37,566 nt of DNA. It comes from Bacillota bacterium. GTDB taxonomy: Bacteria; Bacillota; Clostridia; Peptostreptococcales; Anaerovoracaceae. The translations under genes were made by a program, and so were the position numbers. Shown here in pieces: positions 15,937 through 25,844 of the stretch. Numbering within the stretch: the first letter of the stretch is position 1; each line of letters starts with the position of its first letter. The DNA lies in contig JAUNCY010000005.1 of assembly GCA_030526325.1 (NCBI GenBank), forward strand, positions 1 to 37,566. Reading direction: 5' to 3'. Under the pieces are notes generated by a model, which was given only the letters and a program-made list of their open reading frames with translations, was not told the origin of the DNA and made no database searches.

Positions 15937-18207
15937 CTATTGTTTTTTACTGTCCAGCAGCTTGTCCGCAATGAACAGAATAAAAGCGAGATAAGTGTTT
16001 ATTCCGAAGACACAGCCTATGCTTCCGAGTTTATACAGACTTATGAAGGCAGGGGCAGCGAAGGACATTACTACGTTCTTAATTTCCTCGGGTTCCAGTG
16101 CGGCGACTTTTTCCTCGGTAATCTCAGAAATATGAACATCTTTTATAAGCTCCGGAACGGAATCAACCGCCGAAGCATATACGGCTTCCGCACATTTGTC
16201 CGATATTGAGGAAGCAAATTCCGGAGAAAAATATTTTTCGCTGTCGGAAACAAGCTTTTCTATACAGCTTCCGACAGCGTTTCTGAAATCATCAAAAGCG
16301 TAATTGTCAGAACAGATTTTTGCAAGTGTTCCCGCTGCGGAGGCTGATAATTCATCCATTGAGAAGAATTCACCGATTTTCCTGTCGGCAATCTCGGTCA
16401 TATAAAAAGTTTCAGCCAGATACCAGACTTTTTCCTTAAGGGAGGAATTTCCCCTGATAATATTGGACAGAGCATATGCGGTAAATCTGTAATCGTATGC
16501 CTCGTCATCTTTGTCGGGCGGATTTTCGGCAAGTTTATCCAAAAGCCTGAAATACAGCTGCAGGCCTTTTTTCTTTACGACAGGATTATTAAGGTTGATA
16601 AACGAGCCGAAGGTGCGCCCCCCGAGACCTCCGCTGAGGGCATCAGCGATATCAGTTCTGTTTTCAGACATCTTGTTGAAAACATATGCGGAAATTCTTG
16701 CCGCGCCTTTTCTTTTTCCGGCTTCTCCGCCAAAATATGAAAGAAGAGCAGGCATTATATTTTCACCAAGAGTTTCGATGAAAGAAGCTTTGTGGGTTTC
16801 GAGCATTTTAATAATATTGTCCGGAGTGAGAAGCTCTGTCCCGATGTATTCCCCGAGTGTGTGGGCAAATACTTTCTGATTCTGCAGAATGAGACCCCTG
16901 GAGAAGCACTTCGTGTGTCTGAATTTTGAAAGGGTTTTTATCTCCTTATACGGGTGGAAAAACATCTTAATGGCTATTACGTTTGTAATAATGCCGATGA
17001 ATCCCATAAGCAGTATCAGAAATATCAGATTGAACGGGCTATGAGGAAATCCGGAAGGTGCAAAGCCTCCCAGAGTTATCATAAGCGCCGGAATGCTCAG
17101 CAGAAATCCGAGAACACCGCCGAAATAAGACAGATATTTAAGCTCACCTTTCATAAGACGCTCAGCCACATCGCAGAGCTGATCCGGATCCAGCCTTCCC
17201 AGTGCGATTTTTACGGTTTCCTTAACCTTGCCGCCGAGAAGTCTGACTATGTTGCTGTCAAGATAATCGTATATCATTCCGGAGACTGTCTCTCTTAATC
17301 TTCCGCTTTCGGAAATGCCGGTTATAAGAGGAGAAATATCCTCGTTCGAAAGACTGTCGACTTTTTCTCTGTACTTTTTAAGGATTTCCGCTTCTATTTT
17401 TTCCGCAAGCCTGTCCCTGCTTTCTTCGTTTACGTATCCGGAAGCAGTTTTGTCTTTTATGAATCCGGATACTCCGGAGGAGATAAGATTTCTAAATGCC
17501 GCACTGATTTTATCCGGAAGATTCATCGAGGCAAGGTCCGCAAGAGGATTTCCTCCTCCGCCTCCGAACAGCTTGGATGCGAGAATGCTTAGAGCAGCTC
17601 TGCCGTCAGGATTGAACATGGCGGAGAACAGCAGCTCGGTTAACAGCCTGCTGATTATGTCTTTTATGGCAAAGTTGTTTTTGAAAGCATGCTTCAGACT
17701 CTCATAGAGATTGTCCGAGGCTGTCTGAATCTGCCTGTCGTTGATGTAATCCGACAGGTTTACTGCATCGAGAACGTGTACCAGAAGCTCTGAGGTGTTT
17801 TCGTCCAGAACCTCCTTGAGACATTCGTAAAGAGAAGCGTCTGTGTTTTCAAAGCCCTTAAGTTCAGAAAGCTTTATGCTTTTAAAGCTTTCTGGAAGGG
17901 AGTCCATAATGAAACGGTCGACGATTTCGTCGATATGAGCCTTCATGGTGTCATTTATTATCTCTTCTTTCAGAACATCTGCGGTCAGAATCCTGCGCTC
18001 GACACAATCGCTGAGGCTGTCTATGAAGGCCTCCTGCTTTTCATCTGTACTGAGAATGCTTACATCAAAGATCTGTCTGCCGAACAGTTTAACCGGCTTG
18101 AAGAGCCACCTTACCGCGTATTTGTTTGTTATATATCCTGCAATGGTTCCGGAGAGTACCAATGTTACTGCCGTAATAACAGTAATTACTGTCTGCTGAT
18201 CGTTCAT
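15937..18207 (-). CDS. Large DUF445-family membrane protein with internal duplication
   Basis: A 756-residue protein of the DUF445 family (COG4399-like, related to B. subtilis YheB); biochemical function unknown. The signature glycine-rich turn GYITNKYAVRWLFKP follows the first membrane helix (about residues 8-30) and occurs again in variant form as GIITNVIAIKMFFHPYKEIK after a pair of helices in the middle of the protein (roughly residues 365-425). This suggests two tandem DUF445 modules. Long charged helical segments separate them, and a final hydrophobic helix (CVFGINTYLAFILFIADKLL) ends the protein. The start is ATG at 18207, four bases after the upstream radical SAM gene. It is longer than most family members (about 400 aa). 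Confidence 0.8.
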   Translation of the reverse strand: MNDQQTVITVITAVTLVLSGTIAGYITNKYAVRWLFKPVKLFGRQIFDVSILSTDEKQEAFIDSLSDCVERRILTADVLKEEIINDTMKAHIDEIVDRFIMDSLPESFKSIKLSELKGFENTDASLYECLKEVLDENTSELLVHVLDAVNLSDYINDRQIQTASDNLYESLKHAFKNNFAIKDIISRLLTELLFSAMFNPDGRAALSILASKLFGGGGGNPLADLASMNLPDKISAAFRNLISSGVSGFIKDKTASGYVNEESRDRLAEKIEAEILKKYREKVDSLSNEDISPLITGISESGRLRETVSGMIYDYLDSNIVRLLGGKVKETVKIALGRLDPDQLCDVAERLMKGELKYLSYFGGVLGFLLSIPALMITLGGFAPSGFPHSPFNLIFLILLMGFIGIITNVIAIKMFFHPYKEIKTLSKFRHTKCFSRGLILQNQKVFAHTLGEYIGTELLTPDNIIKMLETHKASFIETLGENIMPALLSYFGGEAGKRKGAARISAYVFNKMSENRTDIADALSGGLGGRTFGSFINLNNPVVKKKGLQLYFRLLDKLAENPPDKDDEAYDYRFTAYALSNIIRGNSSLKEKVWYLAETFYMTEIADRKIGEFFSMDELSASAAGTLAKICSDNYAFDDFRNAVGSCIEKLVSDSEKYFSPEFASSISDKCAEAVYASAVDSVPELIKDVHISEITEEKVAALEPEEIKNVVMSFAAPAFISLYKLGSIGCVFGINTYLAFILFIADKLLDSKKQ

Positions 18208-18211
18208 ATTA

Positions 18212-19237
18212 TCACCTTAATTCTGCCTTGTATTTGTAATCCGGAAGAGTGTTGTCCTTTCTGTAAAGAAAACGGTACTCCGGATAGACTGTCGAGAAAT
18301 ATTTTTTGTTTGAGCCCTTCATTCCTATCATATTTGAAAAGGAATGCTCGTTTGAGGTCAGAATAATTTCACCGCTCCCGTCCGAGGCAAGCCGTTCCAG
18401 CTCCCTCCGGATTTTTTCCTTTGCAATTTCGCTTTCCACAAGCTGGCGGAAGGCGGGATGAAAGGTATTTCCGTATATTTCCCCTTTTTCATTTATTATG
18501 TCACTGCTTTTAAGCCCTACTCTTATTATGTTTATTCCGGCGTCCTGCAGTATCGTATACATCTGTTTTGAGGTTTCTACGGCCTCCTCAAGGGTGAGGG
18601 GGGTATACTGACCGCTTCTGTACATATCGAGAAGTTTTGTGTCTTCGATTACTATCGTTGGATAAATTCTTGCCAGTTCCGGCATTATTTTCACTGTTTC
18701 ATAAGCGGAATATACAGATTTTTCCCGGGTATCTCCGGGAAGTCCCACCATCAGCTGTATGCCTAGGGTAAATCCATAGTCTTTTATAAGTTCGCAGCTT
18801 TTGTAGACTGCAGCGCTGTTGTGGCCTCTTTCGGACAGTCTAAGGACCTCGTCGTCAAAGGACTGAACTCCAAGCTCAATTATATCCACGTCGTGTTTTT
18901 TCAGATTTTCAAGTATCTCCGGACTTATGTAGTCAGGCCTGGTGGAAAGATGGATTTTATCGATAAGACCATTGTCCTTGTACCCTTTGGCAATATCGAG
19001 GTATTCGTTCTGCTTTTCCACAGGAATCCCGGTAAAGCTTCCTCCGTACATGGCCATCTCGATTATTTCCGGACGGGGATTGTTCAGAGTAGACAGATAC
19101 CTGGACGCAGTTTCTTCAATATCTACTTTTTCTTCCGCATGAGTTCTGGCCGTAATTTTCTTCTGATTGCAGAAAACGCAGTCGTTCGGACATCCCTCAT
19201 GGGGTATGAATATGGGTATTATTGCGTGTTTCTTCAT
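18212..19237 (-). CDS. Elp3-like radical SAM protein without acetyltransferase domain
   Basis: A 341-residue radical SAM enzyme. The cluster motif is CPNDCVFC (Cys16, Cys20, Cys23) in IPHEGCPNDCVFCNQKKIT, as in the bacterial Elp3-like group (COG1243-related). Next come MYGGSFTGIP, equivalent to the SAM-binding GGE motif, STRPDYI, IELGVQSFDDEVL and GLPGDTREK, all usual for the Elp3/HemN-like TIM barrel. The C-terminal part (to residue 341) has no GNAT acetyltransferase domain, unlike true Elp3 (about 500 or more residues), so tRNA wobble carboxymethylation should not be assumed. It overlaps the upstream DUF6873-like gene by 4 bases and is followed after 4 bases by the DUF445 gene, so all are probably one transcript. 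Confidence 0.85.
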   Translation of the reverse strand: MKKHAIIPIFIPHEGCPNDCVFCNQKKITARTHAEEKVDIEETASRYLSTLNNPRPEIIEMAMYGGSFTGIPVEKQNEYLDIAKGYKDNGLIDKIHLSTRPDYISPEILENLKKHDVDIIELGVQSFDDEVLRLSERGHNSAAVYKSCELIKDYGFTLGIQLMVGLPGDTREKSVYSAYETVKIMPELARIYPTIVIEDTKLLDMYRSGQYTPLTLEEAVETSKQMYTILQDAGINIIRVGLKSSDIINEKGEIYGNTFHPAFRQLVESEIAKEKIRRELERLASDGSGEIILTSNEHSFSNMIGMKGSNKKYFSTVYPEYRFLYRKDNTLPDYKYKAELR

Positions 19238-19926
19238 TTTATATAACCTGTATAAGGAGACTTCCCGGCAGAATCTGAGGTGCAGATTATTGAGCCGATG
19301 TCTTCCAGCATGTATTCTTCGAAAAATTTAAGGGAAAGCCCTCTGGAAAGTATAAAATCCTCTATTGCCTGAAAATCCGGATGGGCGGACAGATTGCCGT
19401 TGAATATGATTTCATTCCCCACACGCCCGCAGCAGCCGCCGATAAAGCCGTAATCATAGTGAGGAAGGCTGATGTATCCTTTTCGTATGAGAAGCACATC
19501 GATTCCGTGAATGCTCATAGCCTTTGCGCTCCCTTCATCGGATGTAATAACCGAAGTTTCGTCTATTATCGCTATACTGCATCGGGAATAGCCCTGTCTT
19601 GTGTTAACAAGGGTAAATCCGGAACTTTTTGCCTTTTCCAGAAGCTCCTGATCTGTAAAACGGAAATTATGGATGAAAAATTTTCCGGTACAAGCCGCGT
19701 TATATGGCACATCAAAGGGATATTTGTCTTTCAGCTTTGAAGGATCTCCGAAGAATACCGGAGAGTCATCACTGACTCCGAGCTTGCACATATAAATATC
19801 CGGGTGGGTTGAAATTTTTGAATCCAGTCCGGGTTCTCCTGTTACCGGGCGTATTTGCCGGTCATCGGCCTTAAGATATTCAATTAATAAGTGATTCGCA
19901 TTTTCCGATAAATAAATATTTTTCAT
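19234..19926 (-). CDS. DUF6873-like protein (GME/pentein-type fold suspected)
   Basis: A 230-residue soluble protein. Its sequence pattern matches my recollection of the DUF6873 group of Bacillota proteins, thought to share the guanidino-group-modifying (pentein) fold: ISTHPDIYMCKLG, PYNAACTGKFFIHN, LVNTRQGYSRCSIAIIDE, VITSDEGSAKAMSIHGIDVLLI, YGFIGGCCGRVG and FNGNLSAHPDF. These are repeated beta-turn elements with conserved His and Cys residues, but which of them are catalytic I cannot tell. It is the first gene of a minus-strand operon, has its own promoter (19936-19964) and overlaps the radical SAM gene by 4 bases (ATGA). No signal peptide or membrane segment. No function is assigned. Confidence 0.65.
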   Translation of the reverse strand: MKNIYLSENANHLLIEYLKADDRQIRPVTGEPGLDSKISTHPDIYMCKLGVSDDSPVFFGDPSKLKDKYPFDVPYNAACTGKFFIHNFRFTDQELLEKAKSSGFTLVNTRQGYSRCSIAIIDETSVITSDEGSAKAMSIHGIDVLLIRKGYISLPHYDYGFIGGCCGRVGNEIIFNGNLSAHPDFQAIEDFILSRGLSLKFFEEYMLEDIGSIICTSDSAGKSPYTGYIK

Positions 19927-19974: not shown

Positions 19975-19980
19975 TATAAT
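19975..19980 (+). promoter_or_regulatory. -10 element for the pseudo-MoaA/pseudo-Fic operon
   Basis: TATAAT at 19975-19980 has a weak -35 candidate (TTGTGC, 19951-19956, 18-base spacer). It lies 36 bases ahead of the first gene and overlaps the divergent promoter region, so the two operons could share regulation. Confidence 0.5.
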
Positions 19981-20016
19981 GAAATTTAACAGAAATTCAC
20001 AGGAGTGGAGGTCGAC

Positions 20017-20319
20017 ATGAGTAACCAGAATGAAGATAAAATGAATAAAGAACAGAACCCTGCAGAAGAGCAGGAAATTATAGTATACGGAAAGTCGAAA
20101 ATTGACGGAGTTGCCGTGCCGTCTGCTGCCCTCGTGCAGGCAACAGAGGACTATCCTGTTGTGCTGATGGTGGGAGTGGATTTCATCCCGGTAAAAGCCG
20201 GCGACGAAATCAAGACTCCTTACGATGCGGTAATGACTATGGATGAGATACAGAAAATCGGCCCTATGATCAGAATCATAAAGAAGGTTGAGCCAATGAC
20301 CAACGTGGAGGAACTTTAG
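20017..20319 (+). CDS. Hypothetical 100-aa protein, first gene of pseudoenzyme operon
   Basis: I do not recognise this protein. The first 20 or so residues are charged and low-complexity (SNQNEDKMNKEQNPAEEQE), probably disordered. The rest looks like a compact, beta-rich domain (IIVYGKSKIDGVAVPSAAL, DYPVVLMVGVDFIPVKAGDE, then IGPMIRIIKKVEPM). There is no signal peptide, membrane segment or cysteine. The ATG at 20017 is preceded by AGGAGTGGAGG; a GTG at 20005 is in frame but lies within that ribosome binding site. Its stop is 2 bases before the start of the MoaA-like gene, so the two are almost certainly co-translated, and it may be a partner of that protein. Confidence 0.75.
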   Translation: MSNQNEDKMNKEQNPAEEQEIIVYGKSKIDGVAVPSAALVQATEDYPVVLMVGVDFIPVKAGDEIKTPYDAVMTMDEIQKIGPMIRIIKKVEPMTNVEEL

Positions 20320-20321
20320 AG

Positions 20322-21176
20322 ATGAAGGAAATAAAAGAACTTAGAATACAGATTACCAGGAAAAACAAGTTTCCGAGATTATATGACTACGATTTGTTCG
20401 AAGATGCTGAAGCTGAGCTTTCAAATGAGGAAATAACCGCTGCTGCAGCCGCCGCTGCAGAACTGGGTATCAGGTCAATCAGATTCACCGGAGGAGAGCC
20501 TCTTGAGAGAAACGGCATCGAAGAACTGGTAAAGAAGGTTAAGTCTGTGGAAGGAATAGAAAACCTGTCCATGACAACAAACGGAATTTTTCTGGCATCA
20601 AAGGCAAAGGCGCTCAAAGAAGCAGGTCTTGACAGCGTAAATGTTCTTTTGGATACGTTCTTTGAAGAAAAATACATATATATGACAGGCGGAGGCCCTA
20701 TTGACGAGGCTATGGACGGTCTGGAGGCTGCGGTAAATGCGGGAATGAAACCTGTAAGGGTTGAAACCACCGTTATCGAGGGAATAAACGACGATGAGAT
20801 TCTTACTTTCGGTCAGTTTGCTCTGAATGAACCTATCGATATATTATTTGCGGAAAAACCTAACAGAGACGGAGAAAAACTGAAGGAATCCGACAAAGAG
20901 CAGAAATTTATGGCAGCTGCAGATATTAAGAAAAAATTCAAAGGGGCAGTAAAGGTTCCTTCGGAGGATCCTCTTATTGAAAACTGCAAATGGTTTGAAG
21001 CGAAAGGAAAAATCGGGTTTACAGATCTGGATAGAGCCCGGGAGCACGGTCCTGAGATTACAGCGGAAGGAAAACTCAAAAAATCTCTCATTGATTCTCA
21101 GCCGGCTGACATCAGAGAAGCTGTTTCTTCGCTTGATATAGAAAAGATAAAAACCGCACTGGAGTCAAATTTATAA
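20322..21176 (+). CDS. MoaA-like radical SAM homologue lacking all Fe-S cysteines
   Basis: A 284-residue protein that aligns along its length to the barrel of MoaA (GTP 3',8-cyclase). Seen: LRIQITRKNKFPRLYDY in the place of the MoaA cluster loop; SNEEITAAAAAAAELGIRSIRFTGGEPL with the GGEP motif at 57-60; LSMTTNGIFLASKAKALKEAGLDSVNVLLD; MTGGGPIDEAMDGLEAAVNAGMKPVRVETTVIEGINDDEI. By motif alignment without gaps, the three cluster cysteines are replaced by Asn15, Arg19 and Asp22. The C-terminal second-cluster region (GPEITAEGKLKKSLI) also lacks cysteines; the only Cys is Cys222. So it should not bind [4Fe-4S] or do radical chemistry; a SAM, nucleotide or scaffolding role is possible. The reading frame is intact. 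Start by the 2-base spacing to the preceding gene. Confidence 0.8.
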   Translation: MKEIKELRIQITRKNKFPRLYDYDLFEDAEAELSNEEITAAAAAAAELGIRSIRFTGGEPLERNGIEELVKKVKSVEGIENLSMTTNGIFLASKAKALKEAGLDSVNVLLDTFFEEKYIYMTGGGPIDEAMDGLEAAVNAGMKPVRVETTVIEGINDDEILTFGQFALNEPIDILFAEKPNRDGEKLKESDKEQKFMAAADIKKKFKGAVKVPSEDPLIENCKWFEAKGKIGFTDLDRAREHGPEITAEGKLKKSLIDSQPADIREAVSSLDIEKIKTALESNL

Positions 21177-21219
21177 TACAGAGTATTTGTGCGCATCCGC
21201 GTCAGACTGGAGGGAAGCC

Positions 21220-21960
21220 ATGAAATTAGTGGAATTGAGAGCTGACCTGAACGAGAGACTGAAGGACAAATCGGAAATGAAAAGAAAAATCACAGCCATA
21301 TCAAAGCTGCAGTGGATTGAATCCTCTTATGATTTTGATACGGCTTATACCCGTTTGGACGAGCCTCTGAGCGCGGAGGAAATACAGGCGATAATAAAAG
21401 GCGAATATCTGGAAAGCCGTACCGTCAGGGACCATACAATGATAAATAATTATTATGATATGGTTAAACTGGTTTACGGGGTTTCTCCTTTGAAAAACAA
21501 AACCGATGTACGGCTGACAGAGGAAATAAACAGAATGCTTACCAGAGACGACATGTACACGGAAAAGGAGGACTGCTTCAGAAAGGACAGACCGCTGGTT
21601 AAGGAATTCGCTATGGTTCCGGGACATCCTTCAACTGTCAGAGAGGATCTGGAGGGGATAATAAAGAATTATAACGTCGTACGTGACAGCCTTAACCCGC
21701 TTCTGAGAGGATGTTTCCTGCATAATGAGCTGATAAAGGTATATCCTTTCGGTGAGGCAAATGAGGCCACAGCCAGGGCATTGCTTAATTTTGAACTGAT
21801 CTGCGAAGGATTTCTGCCGGCAACCTTTGTCATGGATAAGGATGAATACCGGCACAGCGTCAGCCGGTATATTAACAGCAATGACATGAAGCCCTTTTAC
21901 GATATGATGCTGAGAACCCTGAAACAGAGATATACCAGCTTTCTGGATATGTTCCCTTAG
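21220..21960 (+). CDS. Fic-fold protein with degenerate catalytic motif
   Basis: A 246-residue protein resembling Fic/DOC proteins, which usually transfer AMP or other phosphate-containing groups to target hydroxyls. The Fic-like core includes TVRDHTMINNYYDMVK, LTEEINRMLTRDD, VREDLEGIIKNYN and FLHNELIKVYPFGEANEATARALLNFELICEGFLP. The active-site loop HPFx[DE]GNGRxxR is here Y175-PFGEANEATA-R186: the catalytic His is Tyr, both Gly positions are Ala/Glu and the first Arg is Ala, while Pro-Phe, Glu, Asn and the last Arg are kept. A possible inhibitory helix (WIESSYDFD, residues 32-40) resembles the SxxxE[GN] motif but is also altered. ATG at 21220 follows GGAGGGAAGCC; an upstream in-frame TTG at 21187 is less likely. 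It is 43 bases after the MoaA-like gene. Confidence 0.68.
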   Translation: MKLVELRADLNERLKDKSEMKRKITAISKLQWIESSYDFDTAYTRLDEPLSAEEIQAIIKGEYLESRTVRDHTMINNYYDMVKLVYGVSPLKNKTDVRLTEEINRMLTRDDMYTEKEDCFRKDRPLVKEFAMVPGHPSTVREDLEGIIKNYNVVRDSLNPLLRGCFLHNELIKVYPFGEANEATARALLNFELICEGFLPATFVMDKDEYRHSVSRYINSNDMKPFYDMMLRTLKQRYTSFLDMFP

Positions 21961-22090: not shown

Positions 22091-23305
22091 ATGGAAAAGA
22101 AGAAAGTCGTATTAGCGTATTCAGGCGGTCTGGATACATCTGTTATCCTTACCTGGCTTAAAGTGGAATACAATTATGATGTAATCGCGGTATGCGTTGA
22201 CGTGGGACAGCAGGATGACTTTGAAGAGGTTGAAAAGAAAGCATACGCAACAGGCGCAGCAAAGTGCTATATTGTTGATGTAAAAGAAGAATTTATCACT
22301 GATTACATATATCCCACAATGAAGGCCGGCGCAGTATATGAAAACGATTATCTGCTGGGCACTTCATTCGCGCGACCTCTTATTGCCAAGAAACTCGTTG
22401 AAATCGCTCAGAAAGAAGGCGCAGAGGCAATAGCTCACGGAGCAACAGGCAAAGGCAATGACCAGGTTCGTTTCGAAACTACAATTCACGCTCTGGATCC
22501 GTCACTTAAGATTATCGCACCATGGAGAATGTGGAACCTCAGATCAAGAGAAGACTGCATAGAATATGCAGAAAAGCACAATATTCCTATCGCGCAGACA
22601 AAAGAAAAAATATACAGCCGTGACCAGAACATATGGCATATCAGCCATGAAGGCGGAAACCTGGAAAACACATGGAATGAACACAAGGACGATATCCATG
22701 TAATGAGCCTTACTCCGGAGCAGGCTAAAGACGTTCCTTCCTTCATCGAAATCGAATTTGAAAAGGGTATTCCGGTAGCTTTGGACGGAAGAAAAGTCGA
22801 TCCGCTTACACTGATGACTGTTCTTAATGAAATAGGCGGAGAAAACGGCGTAGGAACAATTGATATTGTTGAAAACCGTCTTGTGGGAATGAAGTCAAGA
22901 GGCGTGTATGAAACTCCGGGCGGCACAATTCTTTATGCTGCACACAGAGCTCTTGAAAAACTTATCCTTGACAGAGACACAATGTATCAGAAAAACCTTC
23001 TTGCACAGAAATACGCACAGATTGTTTATGACGGACTCTGGTACACACCTCTCAGACAGGCAATCGATGCATTTGTAAATGTAACTCAGGAAAGAGTAAC
23101 AGGTGTGGTAAGAATGAAGCTTTATAAAGGAAGCGCAACACCGGTTGCATCCAAATCAAAATATTCACTTTACAACGAAGAATTCGTAACCTTCGGAGAA
23201 GATGATGTTTACGACCAGACAGATGCAGAAGGCTTCATCAACCTCTTCTCCCTTTCACTGAAGATTCGTGCGATTATGGAAGCAGGTCTCGACGAGGAAA
23301 AATAA
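22091..23305 (+). CDS. argG: Argininosuccinate synthase ArgG
   Basis: Joins citrulline and aspartate with ATP to give argininosuccinate, the penultimate step of arginine synthesis. The 404-residue length matches the family. The N-type ATP pyrophosphatase motif [10 protein letters not shown] is at residues 9-18, with GNDQVRFE, the [15 protein letters not shown]-type segment (here [15 protein letters not shown]) and [18 protein letters not shown] all present. GGAGG lies 9 bases ahead of the ATG. It is followed by argH, argF and an HD-domain gene on the same strand, with a hairpin in the argG-argH gap. Regulation by ArgR is supported by the box at 22004. Confidence 0.97.
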
Positions 23306-23344
23306 ACTGCAGTGCGGAATGCACCGAAATATCTGTAAATAACG

Positions 23345-23371
23345 GGGCGGATTTAATATCCGCCCATATTT
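23345..23371 (+). terminator. Hairpin between argG and argH, probable partial terminator
   Basis: GGGCGGAT (23345-23352) and ATCCGCCC (23358-23365) form an 8-bp GC-rich stem with a 5-base loop, followed by ATATTTT. The T-run is interrupted, so termination may be incomplete and argHF could be partly transcribed from the argG promoter. I see no strong separate promoter in the remaining 90 bases. Confidence 0.6.
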
Positions 23372-23460
23372 TGCATTAAGGAACCTCAATTTGAGCGGGA
23401 ATTACTGTTAACGGATATTTATATGAGGAAAATCTAAAAAGGAGAAATATATAACACCAT

Positions 23461-24840
23461 ATGGGAAAGAAACTGTGGGGCGGCAGATTCGCCAAAAAAA
23501 CAGCAACTCTGATGGATGAGTTCAATGCTTCCATAGAGTTTGATCAGAAATTATACAAACATGACATCTTGGGCAGCACAGCACATGCAAAAATGCTGGC
23601 AAAACAGGGAATTATTTCGCAGGAGGACTGTGACAGTATAGTAAAATGCCTGGCAGAAATCCTTGAGGATATAGAAGCGGGCAGGATTGAGTTCAGCATA
23701 GAATACGAAGATATTCATATGAACATAGAAACAATTCTCACGGAGAGAATAGGCGATGCCGGAAAACGTCTTCATACAGCCAGAAGCAGAAACGACCAAG
23801 TGGCTGTGGATATCAGAATGTATGTCAAAGACGAAATCAAAAATATCATAGAGCTTCTGAAGAAGCTTCAGAAAACCCTGATAGATGTGGCCGAGGAAAA
23901 CAAAGAGACGGTAATGCCTGGATATACACATCTCCAGCGTGCACAGCCCGTAACTTTTGCATACTATATGATGGCATATTACCAGATGTTCAAAAGGGAT
24001 GAAGACAGATTCGAAGACTGTTACAAAAGGACGGACTGCCTGCCTTTAGGCTGCGGAGCTCTTGCGGGAACCACATACAGCACCGACAGACAGTTCCTTG
24101 CTGATGAACTGGGATTTGCTGAACTCTGTGAAAATGCTATGGATGCGGTGAGCGACAGAGATTTTGCACTTGAATTCCTGAGCAGCTGCTCAATTATGAT
24201 GATGCATCTTTCCAGATTCTGCGAAGAGCTGGTTGTGTGGAGCAGCAGTGAATTTTCTTTTGTCGAGATGGATGACGCATACAGCACGGGAAGCAGCATT
24301 ATGCCTCAGAAGAAGAACCCGGATATTGCTGAACTCATAAGAGGAAAGACCGGAAGAACATACGGAAACATGATAACTCTGTTTACCATAATGAAATCTC
24401 TGACTCTCGCATACAACAAAGATATGCAGGAGGACAAGCCGCCTGTATTTGATTCCTGTGAGACAGTTAAGGCATCTCTTGAAATTTTTACGGATATGCT
24501 CAGAACTCTCATGGTAAAAAAAGACAACATGGAGGCTGCGGCAAAGAAGGGATTTACAAATGCCACAGATGCTGCGGATTATCTGGTATCCAAAGGCCTT
24601 CCGTTCAGAGAATGTCATGAGATTATCGGAAACATAGTGCTGACCTGTCTTAAGAGAGGAATAGCCATAGAAGATCTGACTCTTGAAGAACTGAAGGAAT
24701 TTTCCCCGTGCTTCGAAGAGGACGTTTATGGAAAGATTGACATAAGAAGCTGTATAGCCGCAAAGAAATCCTACGGCTCAACTTCTTTTGAGAGTGTAGA
24801 TACAATGATAAAAAATGCCAGGGAGGACATGAAAAAGTGA
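23461..24840 (+). CDS. argH: Argininosuccinate lyase ArgH
   Basis: Splits argininosuccinate into arginine and fumarate, the last step of the pathway. The 459-residue length is standard. Seen: KLWGGRFAK start, TARSRNDQVAVDIRMY, PGYTHLQRAQPVTFAY, LPLGCGALAGT and the fumarase-superfamily signature GSSIMPQKKNPD with the catalytic Ser. The start is fixed by a stop codon (TAA at 23452-23454) just upstream in frame, yet the nearest good ribosome binding site (AAGGAG, ending 23444) is about 16 bases away, longer than usual. It overlaps argF by 4 bases (GTGA), implying coupled translation. Confidence 0.97.
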   Translation: MGKKLWGGRFAKKTATLMDEFNASIEFDQKLYKHDILGSTAHAKMLAKQGIISQEDCDSIVKCLAEILEDIEAGRIEFSIEYEDIHMNIETILTERIGDAGKRLHTARSRNDQVAVDIRMYVKDEIKNIIELLKKLQKTLIDVAEENKETVMPGYTHLQRAQPVTFAYYMMAYYQMFKRDEDRFEDCYKRTDCLPLGCGALAGTTYSTDRQFLADELGFAELCENAMDAVSDRDFALEFLSSCSIMMMHLSRFCEELVVWSSSEFSFVEMDDAYSTGSSIMPQKKNPDIAELIRGKTGRTYGNMITLFTIMKSLTLAYNKDMQEDKPPVFDSCETVKASLEIFTDMLRTLMVKKDNMEAAAKKGFTNATDAADYLVSKGLPFRECHEIIGNIVLTCLKRGIAIEDLTLEELKEFSPCFEEDVYGKIDIRSCIAAKKSYGSTSFESVDTMIKNAREDMKK

Positions 24841-25844
24841 GTGTAAATTTAGTAGGAAGAAGCTTTCTTACCCTTTTGGATTATTCAAAGGAAGAAATCC
24901 TTTATATGCTTGAGGTGGCTGCAAAGCTTAAGGCAAAGAAAAAGGCCGGAATCAGGGGGAATCTTCTGGAAGGCAAGAATCTGGTAATGCTGTTTGAAAA
25001 AACGTCAACGAGAACGAGATCTTCTTTTGAGGTTGGAATGCAGGATGAGGGCGGTCATGCCACATTCCTGGGAATGGCGGACAGCCAGTTCGGAAAGAAA
25101 GAGAGCGTTGAGGACAGCGCAAAAGTACTGGGAAGAATATATGACGGTATAGAATTCAGGGGTTTTGCCCAGAAAACCGTTGAGGATCTGGCAAAGTATT
25201 CGGGAGTTCCGGTATTCAACGGGCTTACGGATTTTGACCATCCAACTCAGGCACTGGCGGATTTCCTGACAATGTCAGAGCATATAGATAAGCCGTATGA
25301 AGACATGAAACTGGTATTTGTGGGCGACGGAAGAAACAATGTTGCAAACTGCCTGATTATATGCGCTGCAAAGCTGGGTACAGATTTCGCAATACTTGCA
25401 CCTGAGGAACTTCATACAGATGCAGAACTGCTTAATATGGTTAAGGGTTTTGCGGAGGAATCCGGAGCGAAGATTACTGTTACTTCAGACTTTGAAGAAG
25501 CTCTCAGCGGAGCGGATGCGATTTACACGGATATCTGGTGCTCGATGGGCGAAGAGCATCTGATAGAAGAGCGAGTGGCTCTTCTTTCACCGTACAAGGT
25601 TACCATGGATATGCTTAAAATGACCGGAAATCCTGATGTTATTTTCCTGCACTGCCTGCCTTCCTTCCACGACATGGAAACAGGATTTGCCCGCAAGGTT
25701 ATGGATGAATTCGGACTTGATATATGCGAAGTAACGGATGAAGTGTTCAGAAGCAGAAACTCTGTTGTATTTGACGAGGCAGAGAACAGACTTCACACAA
25801 TAAAGGCGGTTCTGGTTACTCATCTGGCAGGATACAGAGAATAA
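24837..25844 (+). CDS. argF: Ornithine carbamoyltransferase
   Basis: Makes citrulline from ornithine and carbamoyl phosphate. The 335-residue protein has the carbamoyl phosphate loop STRTRSSFE (from residue 57), DHPTQALADF, GDGRNNVANCLI and the ornithine-binding segment FLHCLPSFHD (usually HCLPAFHD). It starts with GTG at 24837, overlapping the argH stop; AGGGAGGACATG in the end of argH supplies the ribosome binding site. The biosynthetic (ArgF) role is inferred from linkage to argG and argH and from the absence of arcA/arcC here; sequence alone does not exclude a catabolic ArcB. An HD-domain gene follows 19 bases later. Confidence 0.94.
   Translation: MSVNLVGRSFLTLLDYSKEEILYMLEVAAKLKAKKKAGIRGNLLEGKNLVMLFEKTSTRTRSSFEVGMQDEGGHATFLGMADSQFGKKESVEDSAKVLGRIYDGIEFRGFAQKTVEDLAKYSGVPVFNGLTDFDHPTQALADFLTMSEHIDKPYEDMKLVFVGDGRNNVANCLIICAAKLGTDFAILAPEELHTDAELLNMVKGFAEESGAKITVTSDFEEALSGADAIYTDIWCSMGEEHLIEERVALLSPYKVTMDMLKMTGNPDVIFLHCLPSFHDMETGFARKVMDEFGLDICEVTDEVFRSRNSVVFDEAENRLHTIKAVLVTHLAGYRE

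Follow-up and report, generated by a model that had tools for sequence, protein, structure and literature searches.

Here we describe a three-gene operon in a 37,566-nucleotide stretch of DNA (the window) from a Bacillota bacterium of the Anaerovoracaceae (contig JAUNCY010000005.1). Gene 1 encodes a stand-alone domain II of MoeA, gene 2 a MoaA homologue predicted to be dead (pseudo-MoaA) and gene 3 a degenerate Fic protein (pseudo-Fic) (Table 1). The identities of the products, the loss of catalytic residues, the co-occurrence and order of the genes, purifying selection on them and their persistence without molybdenum-cofactor synthesis are established. We propose that the operon encodes a conserved module without catalytic function that came together in place and whose products would form a binding or regulatory assembly, and we judge the chances of this reading to be evenly balanced. 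An earlier note on this DNA had suggested a conserved operon of degenerate enzymes, and this holds, the catalytic motifs being absent from genes that are under strong purifying selection.

The small protein, described in that note as a 100-amino-acid (aa) unknown, has this length. Fold and profile matches identify it as domain II of MoeA, and the MoeA-PBP fusion is the type that it resembles most. Its direct matches to MoeA are weak (MoeA_N, E 0.059 in Pfam; PRK14498, E 3.6e-7 in NCBIfam), and the identity was decided by a fold search and by comparison with MoeA-PBP. A structure model built from eight orthologues (mean predicted local distance difference test score 78) returned a MoeA, a gephyrin E domain or a Cnx1E as each of its top 47 matches in the PDB. 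The profile of the eight orthologues matched MoeA-PBP with E-values down to 2.5e-14, versus 4e-5 or weaker for canonical MoeA; when the family was compared with a single canonical MoeA by hhalign, the match was weak, at 34% probability. Across all nine genomes that carry the gene, the protein is 96-131 aa long and lacks MoeA domains I, III (molybdopterin-binding) and IV. The catalytic Asp of the MDG motif is retained in the window (IDG) and is Lys or Arg in genomes G015, G098 and G029, and hence is not conserved. These nine were found among 350 genomes of the family, where the remaining MoeA domain II matches lie in frames of at least 405 aa, mostly 582-734 aa, the sole exception being a 210-aa frame close to a contig start. 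Sampling 317 genomes of the order and 391 of the class brought up no stand-alone domain II beyond the nine.

Gene 2 is, as its motifs read, a predicted dead MoaA that has lost both iron-sulfur (Fe-S) cluster motifs and the GG tail. It scores 159 bits against TIGR02666 (cut-off 284), and its model has as its best PDB fold matches the MoaA structures 2fb2 and 1tv7 (template modeling score up to 0.80). The homology to MoaA noted earlier therefore stands; the protein is cysteine-poor rather than cysteine-free, with a single Cys (C222) outside both cluster motifs. Residues were compared with 27 aligned MoaA sequences that have the cysteines (26 by pattern and one cut by a contig end). All six cluster cysteines are missing from the triad clade. 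The N-terminal CxxxCxxC of the S-adenosylmethionine (SAM) cluster is gone in all nine members, with N15, R19 and D22 in its place in the window, and the C-terminal CxxC...C and an Arg pair are lost or replaced. Positions 109 and 175 no longer carry the Ser and Arg of the pocket, and the C-terminal GG tail of MoaA is absent. What is retained comprises TGG-P (9/9; TGGEP in the window), the following Glu (8/9), R8 (8/9) and R54 (9/9), the last two of which we take to be the equivalents of MoaA Arg17 and Arg71; the clusters, pocket, Arg pair and tail are assigned the functional roles that they have in MoaA. At about twenty positions the triad clade has become fixed for residues that are rare elsewhere, such as Q10, P18, G123, W224 and E245. 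Elsewhere, a MoaA-like protein on a very long branch (locus L029, G062:C13, 1294-2118) keeps CxxxCxxC, but its second cluster is gone and so is the normal C-terminus. It has the look of a half-degenerate protein, and the pseudo-Fic of that genome is on a different contig.

Gene 3 has a Fic domain by profile (Pfam Fic, 35.6 bits, cut-off 24; FICD, E 1.4e-9) and was rightly called degenerate. The motif HxFx(D/E)GNGRxxR, which is required for Fic catalysis (PMC7842960), is replaced by YPFGEANEATAR, with Tyr for the catalytic His. The Fic profile at E 1e-6 matches 212 of the 350 family genomes. In a motif survey of 84 sequences, which are mostly the better matches and do not imply the canonical share among all 212, 5 were canonical and 79 non-canonical. 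The His position in the non-canonical proteins is Tyr in 71 and Trp in 4, and other motif positions hold Pro (79/79), Ala (78/79) and the last Arg (58/79). Within the segment aligned to the class II (S/T)xxxE(G/N) motif, Asp stands for Glu in 45 of the 79 (SYDFD in the window), and Glu is found in the canonical rows. Only one non-canonical Fic keeps the His (HPFSEYSEVMAR; L118 5584-6306, genome G059), the rest of its motif being gone. The Tyr-motif form also occurs in a second family of the order (f9), beside argG-argH-argF (L180 2013-6662 and L181 1999-6580), as in the window, and this shared neighborhood is therefore older than the family. Judged from the motifs, the degeneracy of Fic predates the operon and is far wider than the triad.

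The near fixation of this new motif suggests a retained site, and Fic-fold proteins without the canonical motif can have different activities. It could be, then, that pseudo-Fic is still an enzyme with another chemistry, such as Tyr-based or glycosyl transfer, with the other two products as its cofactors or regulators. However, known Fic enzymes need the His, the first Arg and the Gly-Asn-Gly core for binding and transfer, and the non-canonical proteins have lost these together, which makes an active pseudo-Fic unlikely.

Stand-alone MoeA domain II, pseudo-MoaA and this Fic subtype are found together in exactly nine of the 350 family genomes, spread over five genera. The nine with the small gene are the same nine that have a Fic match of at least 238 bits, the next Fic match being 134 bits, and pseudo-MoaA is present in every one of them. 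Gene order is identical in all eight triad genomes where it could be checked, with at most about 50 bases between genes 2 and 3; in G029, the pseudo-MoaA gene is cut off by the end of one contig, and the Fic gene is found close to where a different contig starts. Orthologues in the other genomes share 58-76% (MoaA-like), 54-75% (small) and 30-65% (Fic-like) identity, and the flanking genes vary among genera while the triad stays whole. As the earlier note supposed, the arrangement is no coincidence. The test that the note set for itself, whether homologues of the three genes occur together, did not refute it, since they do so in nine of nine genomes, and chance grouping is excluded because they recur in the same order.

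Each of the three is a genuine gene that evolves under purifying selection. The ratio of nonsynonymous to synonymous substitution rates (dN/dS) was taken from the pair G099 and G016, synonymous sites being saturated against the window genome, and is 0.10 for gene 1, 0.05 for gene 2 and 0.03 for gene 3, similar to working neighbors. It might be thought that the genes are functionless, decaying relics of a cofactor cluster, given that catalytic residues are gone and that a second pseudo-MoaA lineage, described below, is shrinking from about 280 to 145 aa. We reject this, the chances of it being minimal. The dN/dS values of 0.03-0.10, the intact reading frames in all triad genomes and the roughly twenty newly invariant positions argue against decay, as do the short forms of the second lineage, where changes are concentrated at third codon positions (about 0.6 vs 0.10-0.29).

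The selected function does not appear to be the ancestral one. Seven of the nine triad genomes have no MoaC, including the window's own, which is 96% complete, and MoeA_N is missing in all six that were searched of these seven; a weak MoeA_N match in G016 is the small gene itself. Pathway genes are found in G057 and G064 only, with MoCoBD_1 above its cut-off in G064 only. Several triad genomes are incomplete and single absences are weak, yet the pattern repeats across genera. The triad thus persists with and without the pathway, and because MoaC is so often absent the operon does not serve molybdenum-cofactor synthesis, a role that these absences nearly exclude. A looser connection, in which the triad would regulate or chaperone the original pathway in its handling of a molybdenum or tungsten cofactor, would fit the descent of two genes from cofactor enzymes and the coexistence of triad and pathway in G057 and G064, but the same absences of MoaC, MoeA and MoCoBD_1 render it highly improbable. 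Since the operon is strongly preserved even in species that lack cofactor synthesis, its dead enzymes have probably taken on a new role.

The gene order of relatives points to how this came about. Genomes G035 and G084 have moeA, moeA-PBP and moaA in this order, with a pseudo-Fic and argG/argH on the same contig, and their MoaA branches with the triad pseudo-MoaA (tree support 88/83). Halanaerobium likewise has MoeA-PBP followed by moaA. Because relatives carry moeA-PBP-moaA on the contig that holds pseudo-Fic and argG/argH, the operon probably arose in place by decay and exaptation. The earlier picture of two independently degenerate enzyme families side by side changes in two respects: two of the genes come from one pathway, and there was no single joint event of degeneration, pseudo-Fic being older and wider. 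An origin beside an existing pseudo-Fic also partly explains the side-by-side pattern without a complex.

There is a second clade of cysteine-poor MoaA-like proteins, with lengths between about 280 and 145 aa. Its genes immediately precede pseudo-Fic in genera g34, g53 and g68 (Table 1) and are about 1 kb from it in genus g59. The barrel middle and a GRIGF segment are all that remains in its shortest proteins. The tree sets this clade apart from the triad clade, both on long branches, and the approximately unbiased test did not reject a single origin for the two (p 0.129). In the aligned rows that were read, NEP-D occurs in the triad clade, as in the MoaA of G035, and members of the short clade mostly have QH-Y or LH-Y, as other MoaA do; this split favors two separate origins of pseudo-MoaA. 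Three further loci of g68, L141 (G253), L185 (G271) and L187 (G231), have a pseudo-Fic with no MoaA remnant detected upstream, which may reflect recent loss or a remnant below detection.

We propose a model where an old Fic-fold pseudoenzyme, with Tyr for His, lay beside argG/argH and near a moeA-PBP-moaA cofactor cluster. MoeA-PBP would have been trimmed to domain II, giving gene 1, and MoaA would have lost both clusters, giving gene 2. Both remnants would then have been retained and made together with pseudo-Fic. The Fic fold could act as the docking partner, the MoaA barrel as a ligand-binding or scaffold subunit and the MoeA domain as the connector. A complex is favored by the short gaps, the constant order amid changing neighbors, the strict co-occurrence and the fact that two lineages have a pseudo-MoaA paired with pseudo-Fic. 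Several points weigh against it. Since the gene order was probably inherited, the closeness of the genes says little about contact between their products; pseudo-Fic occurs in many genomes without an adjoining pseudo-MoaA and therefore has a role of its own; and branch support for the proposed origin is moderate, with long branches.

In the main rival explanation, three exapted proteins have separate functions and stay together only through inherited order, with no common complex. Such an arrangement would be expected from the ancestral cluster of the relatives, which shares a contig with pseudo-Fic and the arg genes, and from the frequency with which pseudo-Fic stands alone. It accounts less readily for a triad that remains intact while its flanks differ among genera, for the strict co-occurrence of all three genes in nine of nine genomes and for a pseudo-MoaA and pseudo-Fic pairing in a second lineage, and we consider it rather unlikely. 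Returning to a joint assembly, it is tempting to speculate that the widespread Tyr-for-His pseudo-Fic twice captured a cysteine-poor MoaA, and once also a bare MoeA domain II, to form a dedicated complex made entirely of dead enzymes, with a regulatory role and possibly a link to the neighboring arginine genes. We offer this extension tentatively, as a possibility of some substance that we nonetheless doubt.

The MoeA homologues gephyrin, in animals, and Glp (MoeA2), in Corynebacteriales, act as scaffolds; the active site of Glp is altered, and the protein is probably inactive (PMC10522489, PMC11733289). The operon shares with them a MoeA homologue for which a non-catalytic use is proposed. 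However, gephyrin and Glp keep a whole MoeA and have a known partner, such as FtsZ or a receptor, whereas the operon has domain II only, derived from MoeA-PBP, and joins it to a pseudo-MoaA and a pseudo-Fic. The Fic domain of Bartonella BepC works through protein binding, not catalysis (PMC7842960), as we suggest for gene 3, but BepC retains the His along with most of the motif and is a secreted effector, whereas no sign of secretion, for which no search was made, was seen for the product of gene 3. With FICD-like class II Fic AMP (adenosine monophosphate) transferases, gene 3 has in common the Fic fold, by sequence match, and may share an N-terminal segment resembling the inhibitory helix; unlike them it has Tyr for His and has lost the Gly and the first Arg, family-wide. 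Gene 2 has the fold and ancestry of MoaA, the GTP (guanosine triphosphate) 3',8-cyclase, and mostly retains TGG-P, R8 and R54, but is without either Fe-S cluster and lacks the C-terminal Arg pair, the Ser/Arg pocket residues and the GG tail. The TIGR04347 pseudo-SAM/SPASM family is, by its NCBI name, also a pseudoenzyme of the radical SAM fold; gene 2 matches it weakly, at 66 bits and far under the cut-off of 525, and that family has a SPASM architecture, is archaeal by name and is not MoaA-derived as far as tested. Searches of open-access literature gave nothing relevant on a Cys-less MoaA or a Fic/MoaA/MoeA operon, which is no proof of novelty.

Beyond the operon itself, the locus makes it possible to trace how a cluster of metabolic genes turns into something different. 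Living relatives include forms that look like intact ancestors as well as finished products, and each stage on the way from enzyme to non-enzyme is therefore open to testing. The small protein adds to gephyrin and Glp a much smaller form of MoeA reuse. Further, a common pseudo-Fic family is labelled merely Fic/DOC by profile annotation, which would wrongly suggest an AMP transferase.

Table 1. Coordinates of the operon, its surroundings and the second cysteine-poor MoaA-like clade (L loci in their own numbering)
Feature	Position	Strand	Description
Gene 1, small gene	20017..20319	+	100 aa; stand-alone MoeA domain II with acidic N-terminal tail
Gene 2, MoaA homologue (pseudo-MoaA)	20322..21176	+	284 aa; 2-base gap after gene 1
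Gene 3, Fic homologue (pseudo-Fic)	21220..21960	+	246 aa; 43-base gap after gene 2
Candidate -10 of the operon	19975..19980	+	perfect TATAAT; from sequence
argG, argH, ornithine carbamoyltransferase gene	22091..25844	+	open reading frames; context neighbors in many relatives (synteny; other genera and family f9)
Divergent operon: DUF6873, radical SAM protein with Radical_SAM_C, DUF445	15937-19926	-	open reading frames
Second-clade member (g34, g53, g68), L119	3635-4360
Second-clade member (g34, g53, g68), L190	2425-3270
Second-clade member (g34, g53, g68), L117	4626-5189
Second-clade member (g34, g53, g68), L122	5008-5448
Second-clade member (g34, g53, g68), L125	4094-4537
Second-clade member (g34, g53, g68), L186	3361-3801
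Second-clade member (g34, g53, g68), L184	3296-3733

The layout given in the earlier note, with compact spacing and a divergent minus-strand operon, was confirmed. A GTG at 20005 is a possible alternative start of the small gene. The likeliest Fic start is the ATG at 21220, which is preceded by GGAGGG and has a matching start in most orthologues; an alternative TTG at 21187 would reduce the gap to gene 2 to 10 bases. The operon was also said to have its own -10. The perfect TATAAT is there, but a scan for the sigma-70 consensus found no acceptable -35 for it, and a promoter at this site is plausible. A molybdenum-cofactor riboswitch or other known RNA in the window was considered and rejected, the RNA search having given one tRNA only. 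The divergent operon faces the triad in genera g1 and g64 and is absent there in g16; it was rejected as part of the module, since in g16 it does not adjoin the triad. The arg genes downstream appear to be genomic context of the operon and are only candidate members of the module.
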